Part shown: piece after piece, positions 3,507 through 58,874 of the stretch
Numbering within the stretch: position 1 is the first letter of the stretch
How the letters are laid out: each line of letters opens with the position of its first letter
Source of the DNA: Lewinella sp. 4G2
Lineage (GTDB): Bacteria; Bacteroidota; Bacteroidia; Chitinophagales; Saprospiraceae
Direction of reading: 5' to 3'
DNA: 64,000 nucleotides
Assembly: GCF_001625015.1 (NCBI RefSeq)
Contig: NZ_LVWJ02000019.1
Coordinates: 310,001-374,000 of the forward strand
Translations under genes and position numbers: made by a program
Notes under the pieces: generated by a model
The model's input: only the letters and a program-made list of their open reading frames with translations
The model's database searches: none
What the model was told of the DNA's origin: nothing

Positions 3507-3524
3507 TGCGCTGCCGCGGGTGCC
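3507..3524 (+). repeat. 18-bp dispersed repeat, intergenic copy
   Basis: Reads TGCGCTGCCGCGGGTGCC; two differences from GGCGCTGCCGCAGGTGCC. It lies in the 347-bp spacer between the carbonic anhydrase and the GH57 gene, where nothing else except the downstream -7 box was recognised. Confidence 0.75.
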
Positions 3525-3578
3525 GTAGTTAAGGATAAATGAGCCGGGTGACTTACGGGGTATTGAAATGCGCCTCCG

Positions 3579-3586
3579 TATCTTCG
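3579..3586 (+). promoter_or_regulatory. -7 box directly before the GH57 start
   Basis: TATCTTCG, six nt before the ATG at 3593. A -7 element here would start transcription within a few nt of the start codon, giving a leaderless or nearly leaderless mRNA. It also argues for 3593 as the start. Confidence 0.55.
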
Positions 3587-3592
3587 GTACCT

Positions 3593-6986: not shown

Positions 6987-7004
6987 GGCACCCGCGGCAG
7001 CGCC
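6987..7004 (-). repeat. 18-bp dispersed repeat, intergenic copy
   Basis: Plus strand GGCACCCGCGGCAGCGCC; the minus strand reads the consensus with one change (GGCGCTGCCGCGGGTGCC). It sits 5 bp from the long inverted repeat at 7010-7083. Confidence 0.8.
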
Positions 7005-11773: not shown

Positions 11774-11791
11774 GGCGCTGCCGCAGGTGCC
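11774..11791 (+). repeat. 18-bp dispersed repeat, intergenic copy
   Basis: An exact GGCGCTGCCGCAGGTGCC, 28 bp past the stop of the ArsC-like gene and about 70 bp before the hemF promoter. Confidence 0.9.
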
Positions 11792-17736: not shown

Positions 17737-20331
17737 TTACTCCACGATCAGGCGTTGGCCAAGACCGGAGGGTTGACCGTTTTCGTCCAGGGGCTGCACA
17801 AAATACAGACCAGCCTTTACATCCTGCAGCGACAGTTCGGTTTTCATGCCCCGTGCTTTCGTCCGGACAATCTCCCTGCCAGCAATGTCGTACAAACGGT
17901 ATCCGTCTGCTTCCCCCTCAAGGGTAACCTGCCCGCGCGCGGGGTTCGGGTAAATAGCAATGGGCGCTGCCGCGGGTGCAGTGTCAGGACCGAATAAAGA
18001 GACCAACTCGTCCACCCGGAAGTCCCAAGCGCCACGGCCGTAGGTACCGAAACGGGCGATGCCCTTCTCCGGGACGAACTCCACCGAGTAGTAACGCATC
18101 GTGGGGGCGAACTGCCCCGTAAGGTCAAACCACCGCTCTTCACTTTCCAGGTAAACAAACGGGCCGGATTCCGTTGCCGCAAAAAGCATGGTCTCATCTT
18201 CGTTCGAAGCTAGACCGTGCACCACCGTGGGCGGCAAGCCTTCGCTGATGGGTTCGAAATTGTCACCTCCATCCTTCGATCGCCAGACCGGTGGATTGCT
18301 GTAGCCAGAACCACCTAACCACACCGTTTCGGCCTCCGTCTTGGAAGCGTGGATGGCCTGCCCGTAGAGGTACCATCCTTCGGGGATGAAGTTGAGCGTT
18401 CGGTCCCAGGTCTGCCCGCGGTCGTCGGAAGCAAAGAAGTTCCCTTCTTCCGTTGCCACGTAGAAGCGGTCCGGATTGAGCGGTGAGTAGGTCATGGCGG
18501 AGAGCTTCCCAGCTGCCGCGTCGATAAAGTCAAAGGGAAGGTCCGTGGCTTCGATCTCGCCGATGGCACGATTCAGTTTCAGTTCCACCAGAAACGATCC
18601 GGGGCGCTCGGAATTAGCACTACCACCAGCCAGGTAAGCAACGAGTTGCCCGTCCGTTCGTGGTGCGGACATCAGCGGGTTGATCCAGATAAATTCATCC
18701 GGGCTGTTGAGCTCGTAGCGATCAAAACCATTGTAGTACTTTCCGGCATCGTCCCAATCGTAAAACCCATAAACTACTCCCCGAGGATAAACGGTAAACA
18801 TGGCTTCCCCTTCGTTGGCAAAATCAATGTGTCCAAAGTCACCCCCGAACCACTTGTAGCCGCCCGTGATGCTTTCAGCTCCATTCTCCAGGTCGTTCAG
18901 TACCTGGAAACCCTGGTCCTGCGAGCCCGCGAAGATCTCGTCGGGGTTCCGAGGGTTGGTTCGCACGTCGTAATACTGGGCTACATTCAGGCCCCGCTGG
19001 GCAATGCTGTACCACAGGCTATCGGTGGGGTTGAGCTGATTCAAACCGCCGTGGTTACTTACCAGCATCTGCTTTTCACCCGTTTCATCTTCCACCTCGA
19101 GGAGGCGCATGATGTCAGCGTGGAGGTACTTGACCGGGTCTTCGCGGTTCTGGAACCACTCGTTGGGGAAGTAAAAGGTCTGTCCACCATCGCGGCTCAC
19201 CCATAGTTCTACTGCGCCCCAGGCTACGAAATCCGGGTCGGAAGGCCGTACGTAGATGGACTGGTAACGCCAGGGCACTTTCTCAAGATCCGGCAGGCGG
19301 CTCCACGTTCCACCGTCGTCGTCACTGCGGTGTAGTTCCTGTCCGGACTGCAGGTAAAAGCGCAGGCTATCCACCGTTCCCGGCTCGTTGGTTGCGGTGA
19401 TGCGCGAGCGTAGGTCCGCATCCACGGGGATATTCGCTAATTCGGTAAAGTCACCGTTCGGTGAGTTCTGGTCCAATTCATAAAGCCCGATGCTAAACGT
19501 TAAGTTGGGGCTTGTTCTCCGGGTGGCGTAGAATAGCCGATTAATTCCCACGGGGCTGTACAGGTGGGTGATGGTCTGCACGTAATCTGGTGTCGCTTCC
19601 GCCGGGGTATTCATACTCGTGTAGGTCCGCCCTCCATCAGGTGATTGAAAAAGGAGGTACCGTAAGCGATCCACCTGCATAGATGCGTAAGCCATATTTC
19701 CCACTACTTGCGGGGAGAAGAAGCGAGTGATTTGCTCGGGCCGCAACGTTTGCCCGTTTAAAGAAACGGTCGCAAATTCCCAGGTAAGGCCATCGTCCTC
19801 CGAGTACATCGGCCGGTTGTCTGCGTACGCGATCAGGTTACGCCCGGTTGTCGTCGGCACCAGCCCTAGGTATTCCCGGCTGAAGTAGATATCGTGGTTG
19901 ACGAGGCTATACTCTTGTTTCGGGTAGTCCATCTCCCAAATCGCACCGCCGGCGGACATGATGAAAAGCCGGTCCGGGTTTTCCGGGTCCTGAATCACGT
20001 CGTGGATGCTTCCGGCAATCGTGTTGCTGCCGCGCTCAAACCACTCGCCACTCAGGAGACCGTCGGCGAATGTTTCCACGCTTTTCTTCCGTGGGCCGTT
20101 TTTACGCTTGCGGTGGCGGGCCATGGCGTTTTCGGCTTCCAGCTTTTCCCAGTCCGTACCGGGCGCGGCGCGGTGGATCGCCTCCAGCCAAGCCTCGCGG
20201 TATTCGTGGTTTTCCTCGCCTTCGCCCATGGGTTCGGCGGGGATGGAAAGTAGGTTGTCCGGTTGGACCTGGGCGCTGTCGCAGGATGCGAGGCAAAGAC
20301 TAAGAAAAAGGAATAGGGCAAGGTTCTTCAT
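17737..20331 (-). CDS. BNR/sortilin-type beta-propeller lipoprotein with T9SS domain
   Basis: 864 aa from the ATG at 20331. N-terminus is a lipoprotein signal (MKNLALFLFLSLCLASC, Cys17). The body holds repeated Asp-box turns (SEDDGLTWEF, SPDGGRTYTS, SDDDGGTWSRL, SRDGGQTFYF, SDDRGQTWDR, SKDGGDNFEP), as in VPS10/sortilin or exo-sialidase-like propellers. The last ~75 residues are a type A T9SS sorting domain (IAIYPNPARGQVTLEGE...GLYFVQP). Carrying both a lipobox and a T9SS domain is odd, since the two anchor a protein by different routes. The linker just before the sorting domain, APAAAP, is encoded by an 18-bp repeat copy. Substrate unknown. Confidence 0.85.
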   Translation of the reverse strand: MKNLALFLFLSLCLASCDSAQVQPDNLLSIPAEPMGEGEENHEYREAWLEAIHRAAPGTDWEKLEAENAMARHRKRKNGPRKKSVETFADGLLSGEWFERGSNTIAGSIHDVIQDPENPDRLFIMSAGGAIWEMDYPKQEYSLVNHDIYFSREYLGLVPTTTGRNLIAYADNRPMYSEDDGLTWEFATVSLNGQTLRPEQITRFFSPQVVGNMAYASMQVDRLRYLLFQSPDGGRTYTSMNTPAEATPDYVQTITHLYSPVGINRLFYATRRTSPNLTFSIGLYELDQNSPNGDFTELANIPVDADLRSRITATNEPGTVDSLRFYLQSGQELHRSDDDGGTWSRLPDLEKVPWRYQSIYVRPSDPDFVAWGAVELWVSRDGGQTFYFPNEWFQNREDPVKYLHADIMRLLEVEDETGEKQMLVSNHGGLNQLNPTDSLWYSIAQRGLNVAQYYDVRTNPRNPDEIFAGSQDQGFQVLNDLENGAESITGGYKWFGGDFGHIDFANEGEAMFTVYPRGVVYGFYDWDDAGKYYNGFDRYELNSPDEFIWINPLMSAPRTDGQLVAYLAGGSANSERPGSFLVELKLNRAIGEIEATDLPFDFIDAAAGKLSAMTYSPLNPDRFYVATEEGNFFASDDRGQTWDRTLNFIPEGWYLYGQAIHASKTEAETVWLGGSGYSNPPVWRSKDGGDNFEPISEGLPPTVVHGLASNEDETMLFAATESGPFVYLESEERWFDLTGQFAPTMRYYSVEFVPEKGIARFGTYGRGAWDFRVDELVSLFGPDTAPAAAPIAIYPNPARGQVTLEGEADGYRLYDIAGREIVRTKARGMKTELSLQDVKAGLYFVQPLDENGQPSGLGQRLIVE
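17963..17980 (+). repeat. 18-bp dispersed repeat inside the BNR lipoprotein gene
   Basis: GGCGCTGCCGCGGGTGCA; read on the minus strand it encodes APAAAP exactly between the propeller and the T9SS domain. Confidence 0.85.
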
Positions 20332-27522: not shown

Positions 27523-28698
27523 ATGCGCCACTTCCTCAACTTACTTTCCGCCGCTCTTTTGGGGGGCATTCTGGCTGCGTTGATCGTGTTGTCCGTACTT
27601 CCCGGTATCGGGCTTAGTGGAAACCCAGTCCCCGCCCAACTTACCCCGGCACCTGCGGCAGCGCCCTATTCAGCATCGAACCCTCCTGTTTATTTGGCTA
27701 GCTACGACGGTGAAGAAAAAGTATTGGACCTGCCCAGCCCTCCCGATCTACGAACCGCCGCCAAGCGAGCGACCCCCAGCACGGTTCACATCACGGCCCG
27801 GCCCGAGAACCTATCTCGCAACGCCGTAAAATCGCTATTCAGCGAGCGAGATGAGCGGCAGCCGGCCGACGGAGAAGGCTCCGGTGTGATCTACAGTAGC
27901 GATGGATACATCGTGACGAACCAACACGTAGTGCGAGGTGCCGGCGAGATCATCGTCCGTATGACGGACCGCCAAACCTTCCCCGCCCGCCTGGTGGGAG
28001 AAGACCCGAAATCGGACCTGGCCGTACTGAAGATCGAAGCCGGGCGCAAACTCCCAACCCTCCTGATTGCGGATAGCGACCTCGCCCAACCGGGAGAATG
28101 GGTGCTCGCCGTCGGTAGCCCGCTCGGCCTGGCGAGCACCGTGACCGCCGGCATCGTGAGTGCCAAAAGCCGGAACATCAGCCTTTTGCGCGACCTCGAC
28201 GCCATCGAAAGCTTCATTCAGACCGATGCGGCCGTGAACCCCGGCAACAGCGGCGGACCACTCGTAACGGCGGACGGAAAACTACTCGGCATCAACACGG
28301 CCATTGCAACCCGGAACGGGCGCTTTTCGGGCTACAGTTTCGCGATACCCAGTAATCTCGTGCGGCGGGTTGCGGATGACATTATTGAATTTGGCTCCTA
28401 CCAACGGGCCTTCCTGGGCGTTGGTATCTCTACGCTGACCGGTGCCGACATTGAACGGCTCCGGCCCGGCCGAACCGAAGGCGTACTCGTGGACGAAGTA
28501 TTTACGGAAGGCTCCGCTGCCGCCGCGGGCATCCTGGTCAACGATCTGATCGTGCGCATCGGTGACCGTAAGATCAGAGACATCCCCGAACTGACGGAGA
28601 TCATTGGCCGGGCTAAAGTTGGGGAAACGTTAAAAGTAAGCGTAGTCCGGAACGGAAAACTGCTCGAAGTCATCGTTCCTTTGCTGAGCGGTAAGTAA
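27523..28698 (+). CDS. HtrA/Deg-family serine protease
   Basis: 391 aa. Envelope quality-control protease with an N-terminal membrane anchor (residues 4-30), trypsin-like domain (about 75-275) and one PDZ domain (about 290-385). Catalytic triad: His135 (TNQHVV), Asp165 (SDLAVLKI), Ser243 (NPGNSGGPL). One PDZ and an uncleaved anchor resemble DegS more than DegP. The linker after the anchor, APAAAP at 43-48, is encoded by an 18-bp repeat copy. It lies 55 bp upstream of lptB on the same strand, which fits a shared envelope role. Confidence 0.93.
   Translation: MRHFLNLLSAALLGGILAALIVLSVLPGIGLSGNPVPAQLTPAPAAAPYSASNPPVYLASYDGEEKVLDLPSPPDLRTAAKRATPSTVHITARPENLSRNAVKSLFSERDERQPADGEGSGVIYSSDGYIVTNQHVVRGAGEIIVRMTDRQTFPARLVGEDPKSDLAVLKIEAGRKLPTLLIADSDLAQPGEWVLAVGSPLGLASTVTAGIVSAKSRNISLLRDLDAIESFIQTDAAVNPGNSGGPLVTADGKLLGINTAIATRNGRFSGYSFAIPSNLVRRVADDIIEFGSYQRAFLGVGISTLTGADIERLRPGRTEGVLVDEVFTEGSAAAAGILVNDLIVRIGDRKIRDIPELTEIIGRAKVGETLKVSVVRNGKLLEVIVPLLSGK
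27648..27665 (-). repeat. 18-bp dispersed repeat inside the HtrA gene
   Basis: Plus strand GGCACCTGCGGCAGCGCC, an exact inverse copy of the consensus. It encodes APAAAP in the periplasmic linker after the membrane anchor. Confidence 0.9.
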
Positions 28699-35375: not shown

Positions 35376-36166
35376 AGCTCTCTGATCTTAATGTTCCGAA
35401 ACCACAGGGCACTGTCGTGGTCCTGTAAGCCGATGTAGCCGGATTTGAACTTCCCGTAGTCCGGAGCGTGGCTCCATTTTCCACTGTCGCGCCGCTTTTG
35501 CCAATCGTCGGACCAAGGCACGAAATTCACCACCAACTTACCGTTGAGCCAGTATTCCGCACGTTCCGGCGTGAAGAGAATGCGGCTGGTATTCCACTCC
35601 CCCGCGGGCTTCAGATTTCGGCCCTCCATTGGGGCCGGGTACATGGCGTAGTCGGCGCCCGTGCTTTGCCAATCCTGCAGTTCTGGGCCGTAGCCGAGGC
35701 CGGCGTTGTAAGCCGAGATGTCGTGAATCTTAGTGTAGTTTTCGTCGTCGATCAACTGGTACTCCGGTGCTACTTCGGGTGGGCCGCCGTAGCCTTCCTT
35801 CACGTGGTAAAAGATGCCGCTGTTGCCGCCGGCGGGGATCTTCCAGTCCAGTACCAGTTCAAAATTATCGAATTCCCGCGCGCCGTAAATGATGTCTTTT
35901 CCCCCTTCGTACTCGGCGTCACTCGTCTTGGCGCCATCGTCGAAGGTCAGTACGTCACCTTCGATCTTCCAGCCGGGGGGCATGGTTTCGGCGTTGTAGC
36001 CCCGCCAGCCATCCAGCGAGCTTCCGTCGAATAAGACCGTCCAATCGTCTTCTGTTGCAGCGGATTCGGGCGCTGCCGCAGGTGCCGTGGAAGAGGAATC
36101 CCCACCCCCAGGCGAAGAACACGCGACTAACATCATCAGGAACAGTAAACCGGGGGACCACCTCAT
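35372..36166 (-). CDS. DUF1080 (3-keto-disaccharide hydrolase-type) lipoprotein
   Basis: 264 aa from ATG 36166, which begins a lipoprotein signal (MRWSPGLLFLMMLVAC, Cys16); an in-frame start 30 codons earlier gives no signal. Residues about 42-264 are a DUF1080 concanavalin-like domain: WTVLFDGSSLDGWRGYN, GGKDIIYGAREFDNFELVLDWKIPAGGNSGIFYHVKEG, EYQLIDDEN and the C-terminal SGYIGLQDHDSALWFRNIKIREL. Family members cleave 3-keto-glycosides. The linker APAAAP at 28-33 comes from an 18-bp repeat copy. Coupled with the Gfo/Idh gene downstream. Confidence 0.9.
   Translation of the reverse strand: MRWSPGLLFLMMLVACSSPGGGDSSSTAPAAAPESAATEDDWTVLFDGSSLDGWRGYNAETMPPGWKIEGDVLTFDDGAKTSDAEYEGGKDIIYGAREFDNFELVLDWKIPAGGNSGIFYHVKEGYGGPPEVAPEYQLIDDENYTKIHDISAYNAGLGYGPELQDWQSTGADYAMYPAPMEGRNLKPAGEWNTSRILFTPERAEYWLNGKLVVNFVPWSDDWQKRRDSGKWSHAPDYGKFKSGYIGLQDHDSALWFRNIKIREL
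36069..36086 (+). repeat. 18-bp dispersed repeat inside the DUF1080 gene
   Basis: Exact consensus on the plus strand; encodes APAAAP on the minus strand in the linker between the lipid anchor and the DUF1080 domain. Confidence 0.9.
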
Positions 36167-36212: not shown

Positions 36213-38240
36213 CTACCGGACGAAGGCCACCGTCCGGATATCCCCCCGCCGGCCAATAACGACCAGGCGGTAGGTTCCCGAAGCCAGGTGGCTGACCGGT
36301 ACGGACGTCAACGGCGCCACCGCCATCCCCCGGCCAAACAGTTGCCCGTCGGCGGCGTACAATCGGTAGGCACCCCGCTCCGCCATCCGGAAGTTGAGGA
36401 GTTCGGTCGTCGGGTTGGGGAAGACGACCACATCTTCAGTATCCGCCACTCGCCGGAGGGTCAGCGCATCGCTCATCGCTTCGCTTCCATCGAGGTCTAC
36501 CATCTTGAGTTGGAAGGTACGTTCCGTGGGCCCGGTGGTCCAGTCCACCAATAATTCGTACCGGTCCCGGTCCCCATTGTATGGCACCTGCGCCAGCGCC
36601 AACGTGCCTTCGGTCGTGAGTTCCAGCACCTCGAAGTGGGAGAAATTGCTGGCGTTGGCCACCGACCACTGCAAACGCGCGGCCTCCTTTTCGGTCTGAC
36701 CGGAAAAGGCTAGCAACTCAATGGGTAACGCGGCCGCCACGTATTCGTAGGCGCCGATGTCGGGCGCAGCGCCCTCAAAGGGAAAGCCAACGTCGACGCC
36801 CCGATCCACCACGAAACTGGTCGCGGAAGCGGGGGCAAAAAACGTATCCGGCATGGCTCCGGATTCGTTGAGGCCGGGGTCTTCGTCGAGGTAATTGCCC
36901 GCGGGCAAGCTAGCGTCGAGTGCGTTAACGGCCAGGTTTGCCTCAAATTCGGTGGACGGTCCATTCATCACCGCCCCCACGAGGCGCGGCTGATCAGCGG
37001 GGCTCACAAGGAGGTTATTCTTGATGTTCCAGCCAGTAACCGTGGACCGAACGGCGATCATCGCCCCCGCTCTGTTGTCGGCGTTCTCGTAATAGAGGGT
37101 ATTGTTGTAAAAATCCACGGTGTCCAATCCGCCGTTGACCCAGAAGAACGACCGATCGACGCCTACCGCCACGTTGTGGTGGATGGAGTTGCGGCCGATA
37201 ATATTCGTACTGCCGAACTGGGCGTAACAGCGGCCATTGTCGTTCTGCACGTCGAAGAAATTGTGGCAAACCTCCATGTATTCCCGTGGCCCCTCGATGT
37301 CGTAACCGTTGGTAAAATAGTTGTCGCGGATACGCATGGAGTAGGTAAAACCACGGCTGGCCGGGTCGCCGTTCGCCCCACCTTTGGGCACGCTGACGGT
37401 GCGGTTGAAGGTATTGTTATAGATATCCACCCCAAATTCTTGCTCAAAGGGAATCTCAATGTCGAACCCGGATCCAGTACTGAAATCGCTGTCGTAGATC
37501 TGCACGTTCGTGTGGCCGCCGCCCTTGTACCCAACGCCCCACTGGCGGTCGCCGGGCACGGTATTGCGGTAAATGATATCGTGAAATTTGGCGTCGCGCA
37601 GCCAGGCGGTGTGGATATTACCACTGAAAAAATCGTCTTCCGTCCGGTTGGCGTTCTCGATGTAGCACCCGCGCACCTCGATCTGCTCACCGAACTGTAT
37701 CGCGATGCCCGCCCAGCCAAAATCGACGATCTCGAGGTTCTCGATCAGGATGGAATCAACGTCGCGGAAATAAATCCCACCGTGGGTAAGGTTATCCAGC
37801 GTGGACTCCAAACGCAAGTTGCGCACGGTCATATTCGTTGTCTGAATCCCGTTGTAGCCGAGCGGAAATTTCTCGAAGGAGATGATGTAATCCTGCCAGG
37901 CTTCGTCTTTCGGCCGGTTCGTCATCACCCAATCGGGGCCACTGCGCAGAATGGTCTGATCCGCTCCTTCTCCCTGTATGGCCACCCCCGGTTCGGGCGT
38001 GGCGGCCTCGGTCACGATGAAGGTACCGGCCCCAATTTGAATGGTATCGGGAGCATTGATATCGCCCGGCACGCGCTCGCAGGCGTAGGCCAGGGAAGCC
38101 CAGGCAGTGGCGGTAGAAAGCCCGTCGCGGGTGTCGTCATCTACTCCGTCGGTAGCAACAAAATAGGTCGTTTGGGCGCTGACGCAGGTGCCGGGTAAAG
38201 CAGCAAGCAACAGTACCAGGAGGTACGGCAATCGGAACAT
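36213..38240 (-). CDS. Secreted parallel beta-helix protein with T9SS sorting domain
   Basis: 675 aa, signal peptide ending VSAQ (about residue 23). Residues 24-500 form a right-handed parallel beta-helix of the pectate-lyase/PbH1 type: repeated short turns such as GIQTTNMTVRNLRLES, ILIENLEIVDFGWAGIAI, IEVRGCYIENANRTEDD, VDFYNNTLYYEN. A C-terminal T9SS type A domain follows (VVVFPNPTTELLNFRMAERGAYRLYADGQLFGRG). Probably a polysaccharide lyase or hydrolase exported by T9SS. Two 18-bp repeat copies lie in this gene, one in the signal peptide. It is upstream of the DUF1080/Gfo pair by 46 bp and likely in the same unit. Confidence 0.85.
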   Translation of the reverse strand: MFRLPYLLVLLLAALPGTCVSAQTTYFVATDGVDDDTRDGLSTATAWASLAYACERVPGDINAPDTIQIGAGTFIVTEAATPEPGVAIQGEGADQTILRSGPDWVMTNRPKDEAWQDYIISFEKFPLGYNGIQTTNMTVRNLRLESTLDNLTHGGIYFRDVDSILIENLEIVDFGWAGIAIQFGEQIEVRGCYIENANRTEDDFFSGNIHTAWLRDAKFHDIIYRNTVPGDRQWGVGYKGGGHTNVQIYDSDFSTGSGFDIEIPFEQEFGVDIYNNTFNRTVSVPKGGANGDPASRGFTYSMRIRDNYFTNGYDIEGPREYMEVCHNFFDVQNDNGRCYAQFGSTNIIGRNSIHHNVAVGVDRSFFWVNGGLDTVDFYNNTLYYENADNRAGAMIAVRSTVTGWNIKNNLLVSPADQPRLVGAVMNGPSTEFEANLAVNALDASLPAGNYLDEDPGLNESGAMPDTFFAPASATSFVVDRGVDVGFPFEGAAPDIGAYEYVAAALPIELLAFSGQTEKEAARLQWSVANASNFSHFEVLELTTEGTLALAQVPYNGDRDRYELLVDWTTGPTERTFQLKMVDLDGSEAMSDALTLRRVADTEDVVVFPNPTTELLNFRMAERGAYRLYAADGQLFGRGMAVAPLTSVPVSHLASGTYRLVVIGRRGDIRTVAFVR
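36583..36600 (-). repeat. 18-bp dispersed repeat inside the beta-helix gene
   Basis: Plus strand GGCACCTGCGCCAGCGCC, one change. On the minus strand it encodes ALAQVP in the loop between the helix and the T9SS domain. Confidence 0.7.
38175..38192 (+). repeat. 18-bp dispersed repeat in the signal-peptide coding region
   Basis: GGCGCTGACGCAGGTGCC, one change. Read on the minus strand in the beta-helix gene it encodes GTCVSA, the cleavage-site region of the signal peptide. Confidence 0.65.
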
Positions 38241-42221: not shown

Positions 42222-45032
42222 TTACCTTGCACCCGCGTCAGCGCCCCCGTTCTTGCGGTACTGACCGGGCGTCATGCTAAACTTGTCGCGGAAGGATTTG
42301 ATGAAGTAACTCGCGCTGCGGAAGCCCACGGCATCGGCGATCATCGCGACCGTATCCTGGGTTTTGAGCAGCATATCCGCGGCGCGTTCCAGCCGAATGG
42401 ACTGGAGGAATTGGTTGCTCGACTGGTCGAGCAGCGCCCGGAATTTCTTGTTCATACTCGGCCGGCTTACGCCAAGTTGTAGCGCCAGTTCGTCGATGCC
42501 AAAATTCTCGTTTTCCATGTTATCCTCGACGGCCTGGACGGCGGCGAGCAGAAATTCCTGGTCCACCGAAGAAGCCGTCACCTCTTCCGGTTTCAGGGTC
42601 AGGGACTCCGCAAAACGCTCACGCAACAACCGGCGGCCACTGATGAGATTGCGGGCCCGGGCGCGTAATTCCGGCACCTCGAAAGGCTTGGTCAGGTAGT
42701 CATCGGCACCCGTATCGAGGCCCTGGATGCGGTCCTGAGCCGCCGCGCGGGCCGTGAGTAAGATGATCGGAATATGGCTCGTTTCCAGGCTGGTTTTGAG
42801 GTCGGCGCACAGTTCGAAGCCGTCCATTTCTGGCATCATCACGTCGCTGATGATGAGGTCGGGCAACAGCTTTTTCGCCATTTGCGTGCCCTCGCGCCCG
42901 TCCCTGGCCTCCTCAACCCGGTAGCTGCCGGACAAGCCGATGCGCAGGTAAGTCCGCATGTCCGCGTTGTCTTCCACGATGAGGACGACCGGTCCGGTCG
43001 GGAGCGATTCTTCTTCGTAATTCTCGGTAAGTGCTGATGCTCCAAGCGCTAGTTCAGCGTCATTTTTGGGCGCTCGCGCAGGTGCGGAGGAATGGGTAGT
43101 GGACACCGCCTTGTAGGGAAGGCGCACCGTGAATACCGTTTCCAGTTCCTCCTCACTTTCGACGCTGATCTGCCCGCCGTGTAAGAGGACGAGTTCTTTG
43201 GTGAGGGCCAAACCGATCCCATTGCCGAAGGTGCCTTCCCTACTCTTACGCTGGTCGGAATAGTAGCGTTCAAAAACGTGGGCCAGTGCCTTTTTGGGTA
43301 TCCCGACGCCCGTATCGCGGACCTTGATCACGAGGTCGTTTTCTTCCCGCTGCAGGGTGACCCCGATCTCCCCACCGTTGAGGGTAAACTTGAAGGCGTT
43401 GGTGAGGAGGTTGTAGACGATGGTCTCCAACTTCTCCCGATCCACCAGCGTGACGAGGCTATCCTCGCTGGCTTTGAACTGAAGGTCAATCTCGTGCTGC
43501 TCGGCCAGGGAAGCGTAACTGTAGGTGAGCCGCCGGAGCATTTGGACGGTATCGACGGCTTCCAATTGCAGGCGTAGCCCCTCCCTTTTGGTATCCGAGA
43601 GATCCAGGATCTGATTGACGAGCTGCAGCTGGCGCTCCGCGTTCCGGTGGGCAATCTGGAGCAATTCCCGGTCGGCGGCGGGCGGCTCCCGGTCGAGCAG
43701 TTGGCGGAGGGGGCCGAGGATGAGCGTCAGCGGCGTCCTGAATTCGTGGGTGATGTTGGCGAAGAAGCGGGAGCGAAAGGTAAACTGGTCCTTCAGCTGC
43801 CGGGCTTCAGTGTTGACGGTGCTGACCTTATCGTACACCCCGTAGAACAACAGGCTCGTGAAGATGAGGAAGGCGTACTCGAAGAGCCTGCCAATCAACG
43901 GGGAGCGGTATTCCGTAATGATGTTGATGATGAAGACGACCGTAGCGAGCGCGAGCAATCCGGTTGAAGCCAGTAGGACGCGTTCCGGCCGGCCACCATT
44001 CCAGGCGGCGGCAATGGTCAACCCAATGGACGCCACTACCCAACCCATGGTTGTGATGTTGGACAGCACGAAGAGCACCTCGATCTCGAGTGAGATAATC
44101 GAGAACCAGGCGCTGAAAAAGAGGGTAAAGACGGTCCAGCCAACATAAAATCGCCAGGCCCGGGGAAAGCGTGTGGGTAGATCCAGGTAATAATAGAGGA
44201 AGCCCGTCATGCCTGCCACTATCAGGCCACCCGACAGGTTGACGGCGTTGATGCCAAGCATGCGAATCTGATCATAACTAGGTAGCAGACCCGATATCTG
44301 CGACTGAAAGTAGAAGTAGTTAAAGAAGCCGAATAGCAAAAGCAATAAGTACATAAAGGTGCGCTCCCGGAAAAGGAGGTAGACGATCAGCGTCACCACC
44401 ATCAAACAGATCAGGAAGCCCGAAATGAAGTAGCCATCCCCGTAGCGCTGGGAGGTAATGTTTAGGTGAGTGGTGGCCTCCGTCACGTAGAGCGTCCCGG
44501 TGATGATCCCAACCCGGCTTTCCGTGACGCGGGCCCGGTGCAACACGGTTACTACTTCCCCGGGCTGAGTATTTAGGGTGATCGCTACTGGTTCTGTGGG
44601 GAGAATGGCGAGTTCCTTTCCCTTGAAGGTGGTCCTTTCTCCAGACTGCCGGATGATGTGGGCGGATACTTCGCTAGCGCAGCAGTGAAAGACTACGTAG
44701 TCAGAGCGCGGCTCGTCGGTACTATTCCGGAAAATGGTCTTCGTCCACAGGTAATCACCCACGGAGAGTGCAGGCCGGTCGGACCAGGCACTGACTGAGT
44801 CCGGGCCGGATAGGCCAAGCACATCGTTGACGGAAAGAATACCATCAGCATCCTTGAGAAACTTCTGGGAAGGTTGTACCCGCGCCGCGGTGGCGTACTG
44901 GGCACCGGACAACTCAAAATAAGCCTGCTCCTCCTGAGCGGCAACTGCGGCAGTAACCGTGCACCAAAATACCACCAGGAGCAACCTGGCGCAGGAGGAA
45001 GCAAAAAATGTCGACTTAACGGAACGCGTCAT
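42222..45032 (-). CDS. Hybrid two-component system protein (7TM-HK-REC-AraC)
   Basis: 936 aa from ATG 45032 (signal peptide follows; 45077 would add 15 residues before it). Order: signal peptide, extracellular 7TMR-DISM domain (about 35-195), seven membrane helices (200-400), HisKA with His429 (FFANITHEFRTPLTLILGPL), HATPase_c (NLLTNAFKF, DTGVGIP, GNGIGLALTKEL), REC with Asp730 (LIISDVMMPEMDG), AraC DNA-binding domain (845-935). Sensor and regulator are thus one chain, like Bacteroides HTCS proteins but with a 7TM sensor instead of a propeller. Two 18-bp repeat copies lie in the gene, one in the HATPase-REC linker, one at the C-terminal end. Likely controls adjacent genes. Confidence 0.94.
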   Translation of the reverse strand: MTRSVKSTFFASSCARLLLVVFWCTVTAAVAAQEEQAYFELSGAQYATAARVQPSQKFLKDADGILSVNDVLGLSGPDSVSAWSDRPALSVGDYLWTKTIFRNSTDEPRSDYVVFHCCASEVSAHIIRQSGERTTFKGKELAILPTEPVAITLNTQPGEVVTVLHRARVTESRVGIITGTLYVTEATTHLNITSQRYGDGYFISGFLICLMVVTLIVYLLFRERTFMYLLLLLFGFFNYFYFQSQISGLLPSYDQIRMLGINAVNLSGGLIVAGMTGFLYYYLDLPTRFPRAWRFYVGWTVFTLFFSAWFSIISLEIEVLFVLSNITTMGWVVASIGLTIAAAWNGGRPERVLLASTGLLALATVVFIINIITEYRSPLIGRLFEYAFLIFTSLLFYGVYDKVSTVNTEARQLKDQFTFRSRFFANITHEFRTPLTLILGPLRQLLDREPPAADRELLQIAHRNAERQLQLVNQILDLSDTKREGLRLQLEAVDTVQMLRRLTYSYASLAEQHEIDLQFKASEDSLVTLVDREKLETIVYNLLTNAFKFTLNGGEIGVTLQREENDLVIKVRDTGVGIPKKALAHVFERYYSDQRKSREGTFGNGIGLALTKELVLLHGGQISVESEEELETVFTVRLPYKAVSTTHSSAPARAPKNDAELALGASALTENYEEESLPTGPVVLIVEDNADMRTYLRIGLSGSYRVEEARDGREGTQMAKKLLPDLIISDVMMPEMDGFELCADLKTSLETSHIPIILLTARAAAQDRIQGLDTGADDYLTKPFEVPELRARARNLISGRRLLRERFAESLTLKPEEVTASSVDQEFLLAAVQAVEDNMENENFGIDELALQLGVSRPSMNKKFRALLDQSSNQFLQSIRLERAADMLLKTQDTVAMIADAVGFRSASYFIKSFRDKFSMTPGQYRKNGGADAGAR
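42228..42245 (-). repeat. 18-bp dispersed repeat at the 3' end of the sensor gene
   Basis: Plus strand TGCACCCGCGTCAGCGCC, three changes. On the minus strand it encodes GADAGA, part of the C-terminal tail GGADAGAR. Confidence 0.6.
43069..43086 (+). repeat. 18-bp dispersed repeat in the HATPase-REC linker
   Basis: GGCGCTCGCGCAGGTGCG, two to three changes; on the minus strand it encodes APARAP in the linker between the kinase and receiver domains. Confidence 0.6.
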
Positions 45033-47217: not shown

Positions 47218-49383
47218 TTACACCAAACTCTGGTACACCACCATCGCGCTCACGTAAGCCAGCACCGTCATGAAAACGAATTGGATGATGGGCCACTTCC
47301 AACCCCCGGTTTCCCGTTTAGTGACGGCGGTGGTGGACATACACATCATTGCAAAAACGTAGAAGACGAGGAGGCTCCACGACGTTGCCTGGTTGTACAC
47401 CGGTTGGCCGGTTTGGGGGTTGACCTCTTCGGCCATCCGGTCACGGATCCGTAACTCGTCGTCCGAACTGCCGATGGAGTAGATGGTGGCCATCGTTCCC
47501 ACGAAGACCTCCCGGGCGGCGAAGCTGGTGAAGAGGGCGATCCCGATCTTCCAGTCGTACCCCAAAGGCCGGATGACGGGTTCGATCGCCTTCCCAATGT
47601 GCCCGGCAAAGCTGGCCTCCAGTTTTTCGCCGGCCAGTAGATCGGCGGCTTGTTCTTCGTCCAGGCCCTGTTGTTCTACCTGACTTTGCACCCGCGACAG
47701 CGCCGCATCCATCTCGCCCGGAGGGCCAAACGTGGAGAGGCCCCACAGGATGATGCTGATGAGCAGAATGATCTTGCCAGCCTCGACGATGAAGGCCTTG
47801 ACCTTTTGCCAAACCGTGACCCCAACGTTGCGCCACACGGGGCTGCGGTACTCGGGCAACTCCAACATGAGGAAGCTGCGCTCGGGCGTTTCCAGCACCA
47901 GTTTGAAGACAAGTGCCGACAGCATGGCCGCCAGGATGCCCAGGAAGTACAAGCCGGCGAAGGCCAGGCCCTGCAAGCCAAAGCCAGCGACGGTCTTCTC
48001 CGGTACCGCGAAGGAAATGAGGATTACGTAAACGGGGATCCGCGCCGAACAACTCGTGAGTGGTGTGACGAGAATGGTAAGCAAACGCTCCTTCCAGTTG
48101 GCGATCGTCCGCGTACTCATGATGGCCGGGATGGCGCAGGCGTGGCCACTAATGAGGGCCACCACCGAGCGCCCGTTGAGGCCGAAACGCTGCATGATGC
48201 CATCAAACATGTAGGCCGCGCGGGCGAGGTAACCGACCTCCTCCAGCAGGGCGACGAAAAAGAACAGGATCGCAATCTGGGGCACGAAAACGAGGACGCC
48301 ACCAAGGCCGGCGAGGACGCCATCCACGAGCAGGTCCGTCAGCCAACCGGCACCGAAGCTTTCGCGGACGGTTGTCCCGAGCGTTTCGAAGAACCACTCG
48401 ATACCGTCCATCGGCCAGCCGGACCAGGCAAACAGGGCCTGGAACAACAGCGTCATGATGACGACGAAAATCACGGGGCCGAAGAAGCGGTGGGTCAGCA
48501 CGTCATCGATCCGGTCCGAAAAACTGGAGTTGGCACCGCCGCGGCGGACGCTGTCCTTGACAATCGGCTCGAAGGTGTCGTAGCGCTCCATTGTCTCCTC
48601 TACCTGGGCGCGGAGGGAATGGAACTCGTGCTTGACGCGGCTCTGCTGCACCAAATGGCGCGTCTTTTCCGGGATGTGCTTGAGCCAACTTGCGTGATGG
48701 GCGAGCAACAGCGCGTGGTAATCATTGCGCGCGGGCAGTTCCTGGCGGAGGTCCGCCAACACGTCGCGGGCGCTGGCACCGGGCTCGTAAAATGATTCCT
48801 GGGGGCGGTAAGCCTGGGGGTTCCGCAGCAGGTCGGCAATGGCTTGTTTGAGGTCTTCCACCCCGGTATTCTCCCGGGCGGAAAGGGCCACGACGGGAAC
48901 GCCGAGGCGGGAAGACAGCCGCTCCTTATCCACCTTCAATCCATTCTCTTCGATGAGGTCGGCCATATTGAGGACGAGCACCATCGGCAGGTCCAAGTCG
49001 CGCAGCTGAGTAAAGAGGAGGAGGTGTTTATCGAGTTTCGTGACGTCGGCCACGTAGATGATGGCATCGGGGTAGAGGTCTCCTTCCGGGTTAGTGAGTT
49101 CCTGCACGACGAGACGTTCGTCCAAACTCGTGGGGTAACAGGAGTAGGCGCCGGGGAAGTCGACCAGTTCGATGTCGGGGATGCGGTCGCCGTCCACGTC
49201 GATCTCTTCGGTGCGGGCCACGTCGCTGAGGCGGAGGGTACCGGACTTCTTTTCCACCGTTACTCCGGGGAAATTGCCGATCCGCTGGCGCAGGCCCGTT
49301 AGTAGGTTGAAGAGGGAGGATTTACCGCTATTGGGGTTCCCGACGAGGCCGACGATGGCCGTTCTTTGTTCCGTTCCGATCAT
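47218..49383 (-). CDS. feoB: Ferrous iron transporter FeoB
   Basis: 721 aa. Fe2+ import. N-terminal G domain: G1 GNPNSGKSS (15-23), G3 DFPGAYS, NMAD (G4), then a helical spacer and a membrane domain with two Gate motifs (LEEVGYLARAAYMFD...GRSVVALISGHACAIPAIMSTRTI). A loop near the C-terminal third (LSRVQSQVEQQGLDEEQAAD) is partly encoded by an 18-bp repeat copy. It overlaps feoA by 4 bp (ATGA), so the two are translationally coupled; feoC is absent. Confidence 0.96.
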   Translation of the reverse strand: MIGTEQRTAIVGLVGNPNSGKSSLFNLLTGLRQRIGNFPGVTVEKKSGTLRLSDVARTEEIDVDGDRIPDIELVDFPGAYSCYPTSLDERLVVQELTNPEGDLYPDAIIYVADVTKLDKHLLLFTQLRDLDLPMVLVLNMADLIEENGLKVDKERLSSRLGVPVVALSARENTGVEDLKQAIADLLRNPQAYRPQESFYEPGASARDVLADLRQELPARNDYHALLLAHHASWLKHIPEKTRHLVQQSRVKHEFHSLRAQVEETMERYDTFEPIVKDSVRRGGANSSFSDRIDDVLTHRFFGPVIFVVIMTLLFQALFAWSGWPMDGIEWFFETLGTTVRESFGAGWLTDLLVDGVLAGLGGVLVFVPQIAILFFFVALLEEVGYLARAAYMFDGIMQRFGLNGRSVVALISGHACAIPAIMSTRTIANWKERLLTILVTPLTSCSARIPVYVILISFAVPEKTVAGFGLQGLAFAGLYFLGILAAMLSALVFKLVLETPERSFLMLELPEYRSPVWRNVGVTVWQKVKAFIVEAGKIILLISIILWGLSTFGPPGEMDAALSRVQSQVEQQGLDEEQAADLLAGEKLEASFAGHIGKAIEPVIRPLGYDWKIGIALFTSFAAREVFVGTMATIYSIGSSDDELRIRDRMAEEVNPQTGQPVYNQATSWSLLVFYVFAMMCMSTTAVTKRETGGWKWPIIQFVFMTVLAYVSAMVVYQSLV
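47687..47704 (-). repeat. 18-bp dispersed repeat inside feoB
   Basis: Plus strand TGCACCCGCGACAGCGCC, three changes. On the minus strand it encodes ALSRVQ in a non-conserved loop of the membrane domain. Confidence 0.6.
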
Positions 49384-52062: not shown

Positions 52063-52250
52063 TAGTTTGATCTTGTTTTAGTGGCTGGGAAATGAGTGTT
52101 CGTCAATTCCCAGGCACGTTGAGAAAAGTTGATCGGCGGGAAACGGCTGTACTTCATGGAAAGTTGCGGCCGTCTATTATAATGGGTCATTAGTTCAGGT
52201 AAACCATCATTTTAAGAAGACCACGTCCCCACCCCCTCCCCCAAAACTTA

Positions 52251-52268
52251 GCACCCGCGGCAGCGCCA
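52251..52268 (-). repeat. 18-bp dispersed repeat, intergenic copy
   Basis: Plus strand AGCACCCGCGGCAGCGCC, two changes, in the spacer between the phosphoesterase and the membrane-protein gene. Confidence 0.75.
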
Positions 52269-55318: not shown

Positions 55319-55695
55319 GTTTCAAGTTGCACAACGGGGAGCGCTTGAAATCGCGCAAGGAGATCGGCCGATTATTCAGCCGTAAGTCAAAGTCCGCCAC
55401 CAGCTATCCCATCCGCGCCGTCTACGGTTGGGCCGGTGAGCCCCGTAGCGAATTTCCGGTGCAGGTCACCTTCGTCGTCCCCAAGCGCCGCTTCAAGCGC
55501 GCCGTCGATCGCAACCGGATCAAGCGCCTGATGCGGGAAGCCTACCGCCTCCATAAAGACGAGTTGGCGCTGCCGCAGGTGCCAGGAGATGGGGAGCAAT
55601 TAGCCGTCCTCTTCATGTACACGGGCAAGGAAGAAATGGATTTCAGCTACCTGGAACGGAAGATGGTAAAGGTGCTGAAGGGCATAAAGGGCTAA
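55315..55695 (+). CDS. rnpA: Ribonuclease P protein component
   Basis: 126 aa. Protein subunit of RNase P, binds the RNA and pre-tRNA leader. The RNR motif is present (FKRAVDRNRIKRLMREAYRLH). The segment after that helix, DELALPQVPGDGEQLAVLFMY, contains ALPQVP encoded by an exact 18-bp repeat copy, so the repeat has extended a loop between the conserved helix and the last strand. rnpA normally sits beside rpmH; here it is translationally coupled to DUF1499 instead. Confidence 0.93.
   Translation: MSFKLHNGERLKSRKEIGRLFSRKSKSATSYPIRAVYGWAGEPRSEFPVQVTFVVPKRRFKRAVDRNRIKRLMREAYRLHKDELALPQVPGDGEQLAVLFMYTGKEEMDFSYLERKMVKVLKGIKG
55566..55583 (+). repeat. 18-bp dispersed repeat inside rnpA
   Basis: Exact consensus GGCGCTGCCGCAGGTGCC in frame, encoding ALPQVP in a loop of the RNase P protein. 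Confidence 0.9.
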
Positions 55696-55760
55696 ACGGG
55701 CTCACGTACTACGGGGCAACTATCCTGGCGGGAATTAAAGGACGGTCTCCATCATTCCAA

Positions 55761-56294
55761 TTACTCAAATAAGCGAAACATCCCCGTCTCCTCGTCCGTC
55801 GACCGAGCAATCTCGTAGCTATCTCGGACGCTACGCCCCCGCACGAGGTACTGATAACAAAAGCTTATCGCAAAGTACAGTGCGGAACTCCCCTCCGGAT
55901 AATCACCGGGCCCAAGGTATTGCTCAACTCCCCGACTCAGGAAGGCATCCGCCATTGCGTCCGTCCCACTCATACAGGCCGTTGATAATACCAGGGAATT
56001 GTTGAACTTCAGGTGAGCCTCGACTTCCGCCGAGCCTAAATACTTATTGAAAGCCTGGCCGGCCCGTAGCGACTCACCTAGTTCCTCCAAGTGGATACCT
56101 CGTTCATCGCCGTGCCCACACAGGATGATGAAGCCGGACCTTTTCTCCTGACCGTCCAGCAAGGCTACCAGGTGATTGGGTTGGCCGATACCGTACAGAT
56201 TCACTTTGACGGACCAATTCTCCAGGCAGGCACGGAGGGCGGTACATTCCATGAAGTCGCCCAGATCAATGATATCTACTTCGGCCAGGTGCAT
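55761..56294 (-). CDS. Small stand-alone caspase-fold (CHAT/C14-like) protein
   Basis: 177 aa. Has the His-Cys dyad arrangement of caspase-fold peptidases: a strand ending in His61 (GFIILCGHGDERGIHLEE) and a strand ending in Cys107 (NNSLVLSTACMSGTDAMADAFLSRGV), followed by the typical C-terminal region with small residues and helix (SSALYFAISFCYQYLVRGRSVRDSYEIA). There is no fused sensor or effector domain. It starts 21 bp downstream of the DEXH helicase stop on the same strand, so the two are probably one operon. Protease activity and role (for example a defence effector) are inference. Confidence 0.7.
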   Translation of the reverse strand: MHLAEVDIIDLGDFMECTALRACLENWSVKVNLYGIGQPNHLVALLDGQEKRSGFIILCGHGDERGIHLEELGESLRAGQAFNKYLGSAEVEAHLKFNNSLVLSTACMSGTDAMADAFLSRGVEQYLGPGDYPEGSSALYFAISFCYQYLVRGRSVRDSYEIARSTDEETGMFRLFE

Positions 56295-56315
56295 AGGTTT
56301 CCGGTTGGTAATTCA

Positions 56316-58874
56316 CTAATCCCGGACCAAAGCCACCCGCATCCGCTTAATGCGGTCCTCCAGTTTTTCGCTGGACATCTTTTCGCGGAGGCGATCCACA
56401 ATGAGGGCAAAACTGAAGGGCGTAGCCTTCGCCGGCTTCTCGAAAAGAATGGTTTGGTTATTGATACGGTCCAAAGCGGCACGCAACCGCTCCTCCTGTA
56501 GCTGAAAGGTCACGATCTCATCGTAGGCCTGGGTGAGGAGCAGGTTATTCGGCTCATAATCAGTGAAGACGTCGAAAAAAAGTTTGCTACTGCTCTGGAG
56601 GTGTTTCTCCTTCTTCTGTTTTCCGGGGTACCCCTTAAAGATGAGCCCGGAAATGGCGGCAATGTCCCGAAAGCGTCGGCTGGCCATTTCCGTAGCGTTG
56701 ATGCCGGCTTCCAGGTCTTCGGTAAGTGTTCCAGCGTCAAAAAGACCAGAACCAAGGGCTTCCTCGATGGGTATGGGCTGGTCGCTCAGCAACTCGAACC
56801 CATAATCGTTATTGGCAATCGTAAAGGTGAGCGGCGCAAACTGCCCGATCCGGTATGCAAAGAGACTGGCCAGCCCTTCGTGGATGCCCCGCCCCTCGCA
56901 AGGGTACATCAGCAAGTGGTATCCTTCCCGGTCGACGAAGTACTCGATCAGCAATTCGTCAGAGCCAGGGATGGCAGAGCGTTGGGCTTGGATATCCCGC
57001 AGCGGTTTCAATTTGGCCAACTCGGCGTCGTGGTAGTTCTCCGTCTTGAGGTGGGTCATGGCTTCCCGGAGCCGCGTCGATAGCTGGCTGGAAAGTTGCA
57101 TCCGTCCTCCTTTCCAACTGGGGATTTTGCCCTTCTTGGCGTTGCTCTTGCGGACGAGGGCCTCCGTCCCCTTCACTTTGACGAGCTTGAGTGAGCGGCC
57201 GGCAAACCAAAAGGTATCCCCCGTCTTCAGGCTGGAGATGAAGTATTCCTCGATCGTCCCTATATAGCCGCCCCGGAGGTACTTGACCATCATCACCTGC
57301 TCGCTGACGATGGCACCGATACCCATCCGGTGCATCATCGCCACCCGTTTGCTGGTGACCTTATATACACCGTCTTCCACGACGACCTTGTGGTACTCAT
57401 CGTATGCGCCGAGGCTGTTGCCACCGGTGGTGATGAATTCCAGGCACCAGTTGAACTCCTCCCGCGTGATGGAAGAGAAACAATAGGTCTTCTTCACTTC
57501 GGCAAAAATCTCATCCGGCCGGAAGCCTTCACTCACCGCTAGGGTAACGAGGTACTGAATCAGCACGTCGAAACTGCGGATGTACGGGATCCGTTGTTCG
57601 ATCTGCCCCTCCGCAATGCACTGGCGCAGGGCCGAGGCTTCCAGCAATTCCAGACTGTGGGTGGGGACGAAATGAATAATGGATTTCGCCCCGGGCCGGT
57701 GGCCGGACCGTCCCGCTCGCTGCATGAACCGGGCCACCCCCTTCGGGCTCCCGATCTGGACGATGGTTTCAACCGGGCGGAAGTCCACCCCCAAGTCAAG
57801 ACTGGCCGTACAGATGACGGCCTTGAGGGAGCCTTCGTGGAGGGCGTTCTCCACCCAGTCCCGCAACTCCCGGCCGATACTACCGTGGTGCATCGCAATG
57901 GCGCCGGAGAGATCCGGGTCCGCATCCAGAATGCGTTGGTACCAAATCTCGCACTGGCTCCGCGTATTCGTAAAGACCAGCGTGGAGCCGGAGGAATGAA
58001 TGATCGGGATGACTTTCTGCAGCAGCTTGATCCCCAGATGGCCGGCCCAGGGGAAGGTCTCGATCTCGTCCGGCATCACCGTCGTGATTTCAATCTCCTT
58101 GGCGATCCCCGCCCGCACGATGACGCCGCGGGAACGGCCGTCCAGCAGGGTTTTGCCGTTTTCCAGACTCAGTTCGTGGGGGATTCCCTGGAGGACGTCC
58201 AGCGCTTCGGGTAGGTTACCGATGGTGGCCGATATGCCCCAGGTCCGGAATTCCCGTCCGCGAAAGCCTCTGAGGCGGGAAAGAGCGGTCTCCAGCAAAA
58301 CGCCCCGTTTTGTTCCTACGAGTTCGTGCCACTCATCCGCCACGAGGACGCGGAGGTTGCCGAAGTAATCTTCGTAACCCTTACTCGCCAGCAGCAGGTG
58401 CAGCGACTCTGGGGTAGTGATGAGAATTTGCGGGGGCGACTTCTTTTGCTTAGCTCGTTCCGAAGTCGAGGTATCACCCGAGCGGATGCCGATCTTCCAA
58501 TCCAGCCCCAGGTCTTCGGCGGCGCGTTGGGCGGCACCCTGAATTTCGCGGGTCAGGGCACGGATGGGAGTAATCCAAATGGCGCGGAGTCCGGACTTCT
58601 TTTTGGTGGTAGCCTTTGCTTGCTTGCCCTCTTCCCCGGCACCTGCGGCAGCGCCCATCTCCTTCTCCCGCAAACCTTCGAGCAGGATGGGCATGATGAG
58701 GGAGTAGGTCTTGCCGCTACCGGTGGGAGCATTGACGAGGCCGTTCTCCCCGTCGAGGTAAGCGTTCCAGGCTTCAAGCTGAAAGGGAAAGGGCTTCCAC
58801 CCCTGCTGGGTGAACCACTTTTTACCGCGGCCGATGAGTTCTCGGCGGGCCTGTTTTGTTGATGTCTTTACCAC
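56316..58874 (-). CDS. Lhr-type DEXH helicase (ligase-associated type)
   Basis: 852 aa. Opens FTQQGWKPFPFQLEAWNAYLDGENGLVNAPTGSGKT (Walker A Lys55) as in ligase-associated DNA-damage-response DEXH helicases; DEWH at 180-183, helicase C domain with QRAGRSGHRPGA, then the Lhr-type winged-helix and core regions. These usually sit with an ATP-dependent DNA ligase and a beta-lactamase-fold nuclease; neither is here. A variable linker GAAAGA (74-79) comes from an 18-bp repeat copy. A small caspase-fold gene follows 21 bp downstream. Confidence 0.9.
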   Translation of the reverse strand: MVKTSTKQARRELIGRGKKWFTQQGWKPFPFQLEAWNAYLDGENGLVNAPTGSGKTYSLIMPILLEGLREKEMGAAAGAGEEGKQAKATTKKKSGLRAIWITPIRALTREIQGAAQRAAEDLGLDWKIGIRSGDTSTSERAKQKKSPPQILITTPESLHLLLASKGYEDYFGNLRVLVADEWHELVGTKRGVLLETALSRLRGFRGREFRTWGISATIGNLPEALDVLQGIPHELSLENGKTLLDGRSRGVIVRAGIAKEIEITTVMPDEIETFPWAGHLGIKLLQKVIPIIHSSGSTLVFTNTRSQCEIWYQRILDADPDLSGAIAMHHGSIGRELRDWVENALHEGSLKAVICTASLDLGVDFRPVETIVQIGSPKGVARFMQRAGRSGHRPGAKSIIHFVPTHSLELLEASALRQCIAEGQIEQRIPYIRSFDVLIQYLVTLAVSEGFRPDEIFAEVKKTYCFSSITREEFNWCLEFITTGGNSLGAYDEYHKVVVEDGVYKVTSKRVAMMHRMGIGAIVSEQVMMVKYLRGGYIGTIEEYFISSLKTGDTFWFAGRSLKLVKVKGTEALVRKSNAKKGKIPSWKGGRMQLSSQLSTRLREAMTHLKTENYHDAELAKLKPLRDIQAQRSAIPGSDELLIEYFVDREGYHLLMYPCEGRGIHEGLASLFAYRIGQFAPLTFTIANNDYGFELLSDQPIPIEEALGSGLFDAGTLTEDLEAGINATEMASRRFRDIAAISGLIFKGYPGKQKKEKHLQSSSKLFFDVFTDYEPNNLLLTQAYDEIVTFQLQEERLRAALDRINNQTILFEKPAKATPFSFALIVDRLREKMSSEKLEDRIKRMRVALVRD
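58638..58655 (-). repeat. 18-bp dispersed repeat inside the helicase gene
   Basis: Plus strand GGCACCTGCGGCAGCGCC, exact inverse. On the minus strand it encodes GAAAGA in the non-conserved segment after the Walker A helix. Confidence 0.9.

Follow-up and report, generated by a model that had tools for sequence, protein, structure and literature searches.

Genomic tags that favour the uptake of DNA are known from the Pasteurellaceae and Neisseriaceae, where uptake accompanies type IV pili, and the neisserial DNA uptake sequences (DUS) can be up to 12-mers. The uptake signal sequence (USS) of Haemophilus is described as a core plus two downstream AT-rich segments (PMC1626085). Both Haemophilus and Neisseria use type IV pili for DNA uptake (PMC7965970). 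For the Neisseriaceae, Frye and colleagues describe DUS 10-mers, single-base dialects, one two-dialect genome and one dialect with an inserted base (PMC3630211), and the minor pilin ComP is described as the protein that binds the neisserial sequences. In Riemerella anatipestifer, transformation is described as requiring ComEC, DprA, ComF and RecA, among others, together with an adjacent pair formed by a DUF5689 + DUF5017 surface protein and a protein that is predicted to reside in the outer membrane and carries a carboxypeptidase regulatory-like domain (PMC8459023), and R. columbina is reported to favour its own DNA (PMC7965970). No tag sequence for Bacteroidota was met in the literature searched, with several searches limited to the top-ranked matches, and nothing relevant was found in the literature on Lewinella, Saprospira and Neolewinella. 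Here, we describe a dispersed repeat with the core GGCGCTGNCGCRGGTGC in a 64,000-nucleotide stretch of the marine bacterium Lewinella sp. 4G2 (contig NZ_LVWJ02000019.1, positions 310,001 to 374,000; the window), which is probably a USS/DUS-like DNA uptake sequence.

The window contains 16 copies of an 18-mer noted in an original prediction at up to 3 mismatches, against a mean of 0.15 and a maximum of 2 in 100 dinucleotide-preserving shuffles of the same DNA. In the whole genome (G000 below, with G019 as the nearest relative and other G labels for compared genomes; 5,213,657 bp in 21 contigs), 484 + 475 = 959 copies are present at up to 2 mismatches, compared to 0 + 1 for the reversed pattern. 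The refined pattern GGCGCTGNCGCRGGTGC yields 603 + 594 = 1197 copies at up to 1 mismatch, compared to 9 + 6 = 15 for its reversed control. The dispersed short repeat is therefore real, and genome-wide counts equal to those of composition-matched words, named beforehand as grounds for abandoning it, were not found. All 15 copies named earlier are present at up to 3 mismatches, with one start to be moved from 52251 to 52250 and five exact 18-mers instead of four (Table 1). The repeat is also, as had been stated, below transposon size.

The anatomy of the unit was read from 864 kb of G000 with 214 copies at up to 2 core mismatches, of which the 195 with at most 1 were picked by core match, leaving the flanks unselected. 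Instead of the 18 bp first proposed, the conserved unit is an asymmetric motif of about 40 bp, composed of an AT-rich lead, the core GGCGCTGNCGCRGGTGC and two purine-rich patches. The lead is A/T-rich at positions -4 to -1 and has G at position 0 (72%). Within the 17-bp core, 15 positions show 96-100% of one base, in part because the core served as the search pattern. Soft flanks reach about +36, with purines at positions 19-21 (G21 86%), A23 and A24, a G-rich segment at 25-29 and, more weakly, A or G at 31-36; weaker flanks around the core are also present in other species of the genus. Since position 18 is nearly free (C in 39% of copies), the proposed 18-bp GGCGCU/GGUGCC hairpin, which needs C there opposite the G of position 1 (97%), is not what is conserved. 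In addition, where species differ at position 6 (T in one, G in another), its partner, position 13, stays the same, and an RNA hairpin unit was rejected for lack of covariation at both pairs (1/18 and 6/13). A scan of the window against Rfam at the gathering threshold returned a single hit, a tRNA.

Placement was assessed in 1.264 Mb of G000 holding 290 copies, with genes from a home-made caller (83% of the DNA coding). The motif lies on the forward strand 143 times and on the reverse strand 147 times, and 37 of the 40 slices taken from the 4.17-Mb contig contain both orientations. A replication-polar site of the KOPS or Chi type was rejected because orientation bias is absent. Called genes contain 169 copies (58%, compared to 83% coding DNA) and 42% lie outside; 92 genic copies share the strand of the gene and 77 oppose it. 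Five of the six frame/strand combinations are common and the sixth occurs once; in this sixth frame TGN, and hence possible stops, would be in frame. With several frames and both strands of genes in use, protein conservation, also raised beforehand as an explanation, does not account for the repeat. The density is about one copy per 4 kb, and copies per 20-kb bin are under-dispersed (index 0.67, P 0.02, 63 bins). Spacing along 464 kb is likewise more regular than random (coefficient of variation 0.738 vs 0.987, P 0.0006, 116 sites). One 20-kb slice, the only one among 40 with a GC content of 0.370, has no motif copy. This slice (L175; G000:C14:3300001-3320000) holds 15 open reading frames (ORFs) of at least 120 aa, all on one strand, and four of nine tested have Pfam matches (MCU, SH3_3, MORN, PP2C). 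Another slice (G000:C14:2100001-2120000), with one motif copy at up to 2 mismatches, carries a 6376-aa open frame (L163:90-19220) with DUF11, SdrD_B and SprB matches in its first 2000 aa.

The count in related genomes that had been suggested as a check confines the abundance of the motif to the genus: at up to 1 mismatch, GGCGCTGNCGCRGGTGC has 2 to 1137 copies in 20 same-genus relatives and 0-4 copies in 19 further genera from the same family and order. Loci of Neolewinella antarctica and N. lacunae carry the core, on which ground the genus is here called Neolewinella, and a contig scan of 80 loci, from at least 119 stretches, comprised four from Neolewinella and 76 others with at most one match each. 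Sampling of the low-count relatives for their own over-represented words revealed species dialects, which differ in position 6 (G or T), in spacer length (3 or 5 bp) or, for G011, in the entire motif. Across the genus, G6 is the most common form, with exact copies numbering 982 in G006, 865 in G018, 853 in G005, 668 in G019, 646 in G014, 605 in G003, 548 in G002 and 415 in G008, down to 0 in G001. For G019 this form is GGCGCGGNCGCNGGTGC, present in 134 copies at up to 1 mismatch in 565 kb; position 6 reads G 69 times, T 15 times and A twice, compared to 228 T, 16 G and 2 C in the 1.264 Mb of G000. The form of G001 and G007 has two extra bases mid-motif, which give the 5-bp spacer (GGGCGSCGGAGCGCRGG; 431 copies in G007 and 426 with a related pattern in G001), and two forms coexist in G002, G013, G016 and G020. 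Other forms are almost absent from G011, whose own motif, GCAYTGCTACTTTGYTAGYC followed by an A-rich tail, has 829 copies at up to 2 mismatches, compared to a single one in the other 20 genus genomes combined. An untargeted k-mer search put the motif family first among the dispersed words of G000 (from 220 kb), G019, G001 and G011 and recovered it more weakly from G007; G004 and samples of 40-100 kb from five other genera yielded nothing comparable. A local repeat of G007, GAGCGCTAGCTCGTCTGCCCAGG, was seen in 5 copies at two places (G007:C1, slices L193 and L196). A single-gene tree of the Lhr helicase (18 genomes) places G000 as sister to G019 with G6 species around both, which makes T6 the probable derived form. 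Most 5-bp-spacer genomes cluster in one group of nine genomes, with G015 outside it. The tree is rooted by drawing convention only, and the long branches of G011 and G005 join, which the program flags with a warning.

Alignment of G000 with G019 over 128 kb covers 25 G000 motif sites. At 17 of these the G019 motif is in register at up to 1 mismatch (three with a gap at the first 1-2 bases), three are split by a 33-bp unit, two are degenerate and three are gone. Among in-register sites with T6 in G000, 14 of 15 read G6 in G019. The 78-base contexts are 30-81% identical, and at the eight sites with at least 60% identity five of six T6 sites read G6. These figures leave out a further tally of 20 pairs, which had been chosen for similarity. 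The alignments show that the T6/G6 difference is an in-place dialect change at orthologous sites. A recogniser with an altered preference would produce such a change in concert; dead insertions would not. The unit of about 33 bp (CCCGACTNAGTNCGGGACTNRCT...) contains an imperfect dyad and is found, for most of the copies read, within the motif or immediately to its left (e.g. G019:C3:477755-477777 and G000:C19:390059-390081). It numbers 87 in G019, 24 in G000, 4 in G009, 1 in G012 and 0 in the other 17 genus genomes, and G019 has two pairs spaced exactly 33 bp. At the three aligned places the G000 motif is plain, which points to either a gain in G019 or a loss in G000. The unit could represent a mini-element with the tag as its target, or else a form of the motif whose spacer is long, at about three helical turns.

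Protein alignments that span the core were obtained 11 times, from 6 of the 169 coding sites, and eight are ungapped in the core; the six sites include two that also gave gapped alignments. Substitution appears to have created the motif at such sites, and insertion may have done so at some. For USS-coding segments, 24% of alignments are reported as gapped, mostly outside the core, and Redfield and colleagues argued for substitution (PMC1626085). The Lhr helicase loop that holds the G000 copy is extended in six genomes (G000, G019, G008, G006, G002 and G015); the remaining 12, among them the copy-rich G005 and G014, have a shorter one. A similar gap test in G011 placed 20 of 22 motif sites in no ORF matched among the compared sets, and the other two share one ORF with low-identity alignments (29-35%).

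If the repeat is an uptake sequence, a surface receptor would recognise it as a tag during natural transformation, resulting in preferential uptake of own-kind DNA. Uptake bias and recombination would then steer point mutations so that tolerant stretches of the genome come to match the preferred sequence, with copies building up between genes and in those parts of proteins that accept the change. A shift in receptor specificity would lead to tags being rewritten in place and hence to species dialects. Competence, biased uptake, the receptor and the identity of the receptor are all features that we infer from sequence. In agreement with known uptake sequences, the motif occurs far above chance in both orientations, has a strong core with weaker flanks, and forms dialects that are common to related species and absent outside the group. 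The even spacing, the share of genic copies below that of coding DNA, the in-place dialect change and the own-DNA preference of R. columbina, a member of this phylum, also speak for this reading. Scarcity in recently acquired DNA is a further trait of uptake sequences, to which the one motif-free slice of low GC content may relate.

Profile searches of the competence machinery detected ComEC in 21 of 22 genomes (15 of 15 in the genus) and comF-like genes, none above the family cut-off, in 39 of 40. DUF5689 was found in 15 of 19 other genera and in one of 21 genus genomes by a profile that could miss diverged homologues; this genome is G011, the species with the unrelated motif. The G011 protein (695 aa) has three DUF5689 domains and no DUF5017 match, and the product of the neighbouring gene, 933 aa long, matches CarboxypepD_reg and Plug (TonB-type barrel), an adjacency that resembles the Riemerella transformation pair. 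The 10-kb piece with both genes includes two copies of the G011 motif. Structure prediction of the DUF5689 protein from the single sequence was unusable (mean predicted local distance difference test score 30.7), and no solved-structure chain matched it at E <= 1. The coincidence of DUF5689 with motif replacement is one correlated event, a lead rather than proof.

Several observations weigh against an uptake sequence. For the machine of the known USS and DUS systems, a type IV pilus, no genuine pilus ATPase (PF00437) was seen in the genus, pilins and secretins not having been searched. The PF00437 matches of the genus reach at most 24.9 bits (25.5 with neighbours), lie barely above the cut-off in 11 of 21 genomes and span about 80 of 370 positions within frames of ~950 aa, compared to 423 bits (G034) and 410 bits (G029) for true members; they are read here as a putative different P-loop protein. 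The ComEC profile also matches 10 of the 14 control genomes, and the ComF profile matches every one, so that these genes are no more than permissive. The literature searched yielded no uptake or transformation data for the genus, and the motif density is below that in Haemophilus or Neisseria. Under every pattern, counts in G004 and G017 stay in the tens, though above controls, and the k-mer search gave no clear G004 dialect. Moreover, the tag was not seen in samples of the DUF5689-bearing genera G022, G023, G024 and G026. The comparison of insertion and substitution is small, with 6 of 169 sites spanned, and three of the 11 alignments (two sites) are gapped, compared to 6.9% of 260 control windows. 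Finally, register at poorly conserved intergenic places may be partly set by the motif itself.

Other explanations account for part of these data. A binding site for an intracellular protein, either a global regulator or one acting in chromosome organisation, segregation or repair, would be spread by selection and change with its protein. Protein binding had been raised as a possibility in the original prediction and is compatible with the motif; the long asymmetric form with soft flanks, the even spacing and the concerted dialect change, which implies a trans-acting recogniser, would all fit. The balanced orientations, unlike those of polar replication-linked sites, the genic position of 58% of copies, unlike that of usual regulator sites, and the full motif replacement in one species, hard to reconcile with an essential chromosome function, make this explanation unlikely. 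The motif could also be the self-mark of a defence or restriction-modification system, with host copies protecting or labelling the DNA. Type I recognition sites are bipartite, as is the core with its 3- or 5-bp spacer between GGCGC-like and CGCRGGTGC halves, and the species-specific forms are in line with a self-mark. Recognition sites of this kind are mostly shorter, however, and a flanking preference to +36 would be atypical, so that we regard a self-mark as improbable.

Spread by a RAYT-like enzyme was another possibility raised initially; an element resembling repetitive extragenic palindromes (REP) with their RAYT, a miniature inverted-repeat transposable element (MITE) or another palindromic element would each be a mobile mini-element copied by a transposase. 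The occurrence of the motif in hundreds of scattered copies of either orientation, the coincidence of a copy with the longer Lhr loop in six genomes and the excess of gapped alignments over control windows are in line with it. However, no flanking duplication, sought as an enriched 4-9 bp direct repeat for the bounds scanned, was detected at 228 exact copies, the palindromic hairpin of REP elements is lacking, most core-spanning alignments are ungapped, and base 6 of orthologous copies changes together in place, unlike in dead insertions; mobility is accordingly a very improbable origin. A coding or compositional by-product, such as a favoured peptide (e.g. APAAAP) or biased codons, is suggested by several copies that encode Ala/Pro-rich stretches. 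It is contradicted by the near-zero reversed control, the 42% of copies outside called genes and the five common frame/strand combinations, and can hardly be entertained.

The copies in the window are compiled in Table 1, together with dprA and the G011 gene pair. Several coding copies occupy a loop, the end of a gene, an interdomain position or the vicinity of signal regions. The 16th copy, within dprA, was absent from the earlier list and is considered doubtful because of its 3 mismatches and because all 18 bases are identical in G019; coding constraint may account for this match. Short tandem words (among them ACTATAGACT / ACTACAGACT and TAGATTTTAGA) that are strongly over-represented genome-wide adjoin two motif copies in the window (about 7005-7045 and 32220-32265) and occur in other G000 slices as well.

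Table 1. Motif copies and transformation-related genes; positions refer to the window unless a contig is given.
Feature	Position	Strand	Match	Location	Other genomes
Motif copy	3507..3524	+	2 mismatches	Intergenic, upstream of glycosyl hydrolase 57/DUF3536 gene (3539-5992)	
Motif copy	6987..7004	-	1 mismatch	Intergenic, TonB_C gene to one side, HSP90 gene to the other	
Motif copy	11774..11791	+	exact	Intergenic, upstream of coproporphyrinogen oxidase	Absent at aligned place in G019
Motif copy	17963..17980	+	2 mismatches	Directly ahead of Por_Secre_tail domain; gene strand reads TAPAAAP	
Motif copy	27648..27665	-	exact	N-terminal part of trypsin/PDZ gene	Aligned G019 place TGCGCGGTCGCGGGTGC
Motif copy	32266..32283	+	1 mismatch	Intergenic	Aligned G019 place TGCGCGGCCGCGGGTGC
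Motif copy	36069..36086	+	exact	294-aa ORF, TAPAAAP at residue 57	
Motif copy	36583..36600	-	1 mismatch	Gene of 675-aa beta-helix protein	
Motif copy	38175..38192	+	1 mismatch	Codon 17 of the same beta-helix protein gene	
Motif copy	42228..42245	-	3 mismatches	Final codons of hybrid histidine kinase gene	Degenerate in G019
Motif copy	43069..43086	+	3 mismatches	Same histidine kinase gene, between HATPase and receiver domains	G019 GGCGCGGACGCGGGTGC
Motif copy	47687..47704	-	3 mismatches	feoB residue 560, past FeoB_C match	G019 GGCGCGGACGCAGGTGC, ungapped alignment
Motif copy	52250..52267	-	2 mismatches	Intergenic	
Motif copy	55566..55583	+	exact	rnpA residue 84 of 126	Aligned G019 motif split by 33-bp unit
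Motif copy	58638..58655	-	exact	Length-variable loop of Lhr-type helicase	G002, G008 loops carry G6 form
Doubtful motif copy	60659..60676	+	3 mismatches	Within dprA	
dprA	60549..61649	+	TIGR00732 above its cut-off	DNA-processing protein of natural transformation	
DUF5689 gene and CarboxypepD_reg/Plug gene	L309:1673-6601 (G011:C115)		profile matches		

An uptake sequence in this genus would represent another, independent case, from a phylum in which competence relies on a different, largely unknown machine, and would mean that self-recognition in transformation evolved on different hardware. As a tentative proposal, Neolewinella may possess a pilus-independent, sequence-specific uptake system with a genomic tag, in which a receptor shift rewrote about 1000 tags from G6 to T6 in the species of the window, and a receptor change in G011, associated with the DUF5689 protein beside a TonB-type barrel, replaced the whole tag vocabulary. 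The DUF5689 protein and its barrel partner would then be a concrete receptor candidate. Because the genus holds a dialect series of one base, spacer length and total replacement, receptor-tag co-evolution can be tested from sequence.

Among the known systems, Riemerella shares with Neolewinella its place in the Bacteroidota, and its described gene set combines ComEC, DprA, ComF and RecA with surface proteins unlike known machines (PMC8459023). Its candidate tags, in contrast, are described as A-run or A/T-rich words only (PMC7965970), and a profile search for DUF5689, which forms part of its essential surface protein, gave no match in 20 of the 21 Neolewinella-genus genomes. With the USS of Haemophilus and other Pasteurellaceae, as described, the motif has in common its many copies, a strong core with weaker downstream segments, placement in coding and non-coding DNA and subclade-specific cores (PMC1626085). 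The Neolewinella core is unrelated, about twice as long and less dense, belongs to Bacteroidota, shows no genuine pilus ATPase alongside it, and concerns an uptake that is predicted only. Dialects that differ by one base or by spacer length, together with the coexistence of two forms in G002, G013, G016 and G020, resemble the neisserial DUS, from whose ComP-bound 10-12-mers the motif differs by its 17-19 bp and the lack of a known pilus. Lastly, HIP1 of cyanobacteria is likewise described as a very abundant short word (PMC4390886). Whereas HIP1 is an 8-bp palindrome linked to methyltransferases, the Neolewinella motif is asymmetric and longer.

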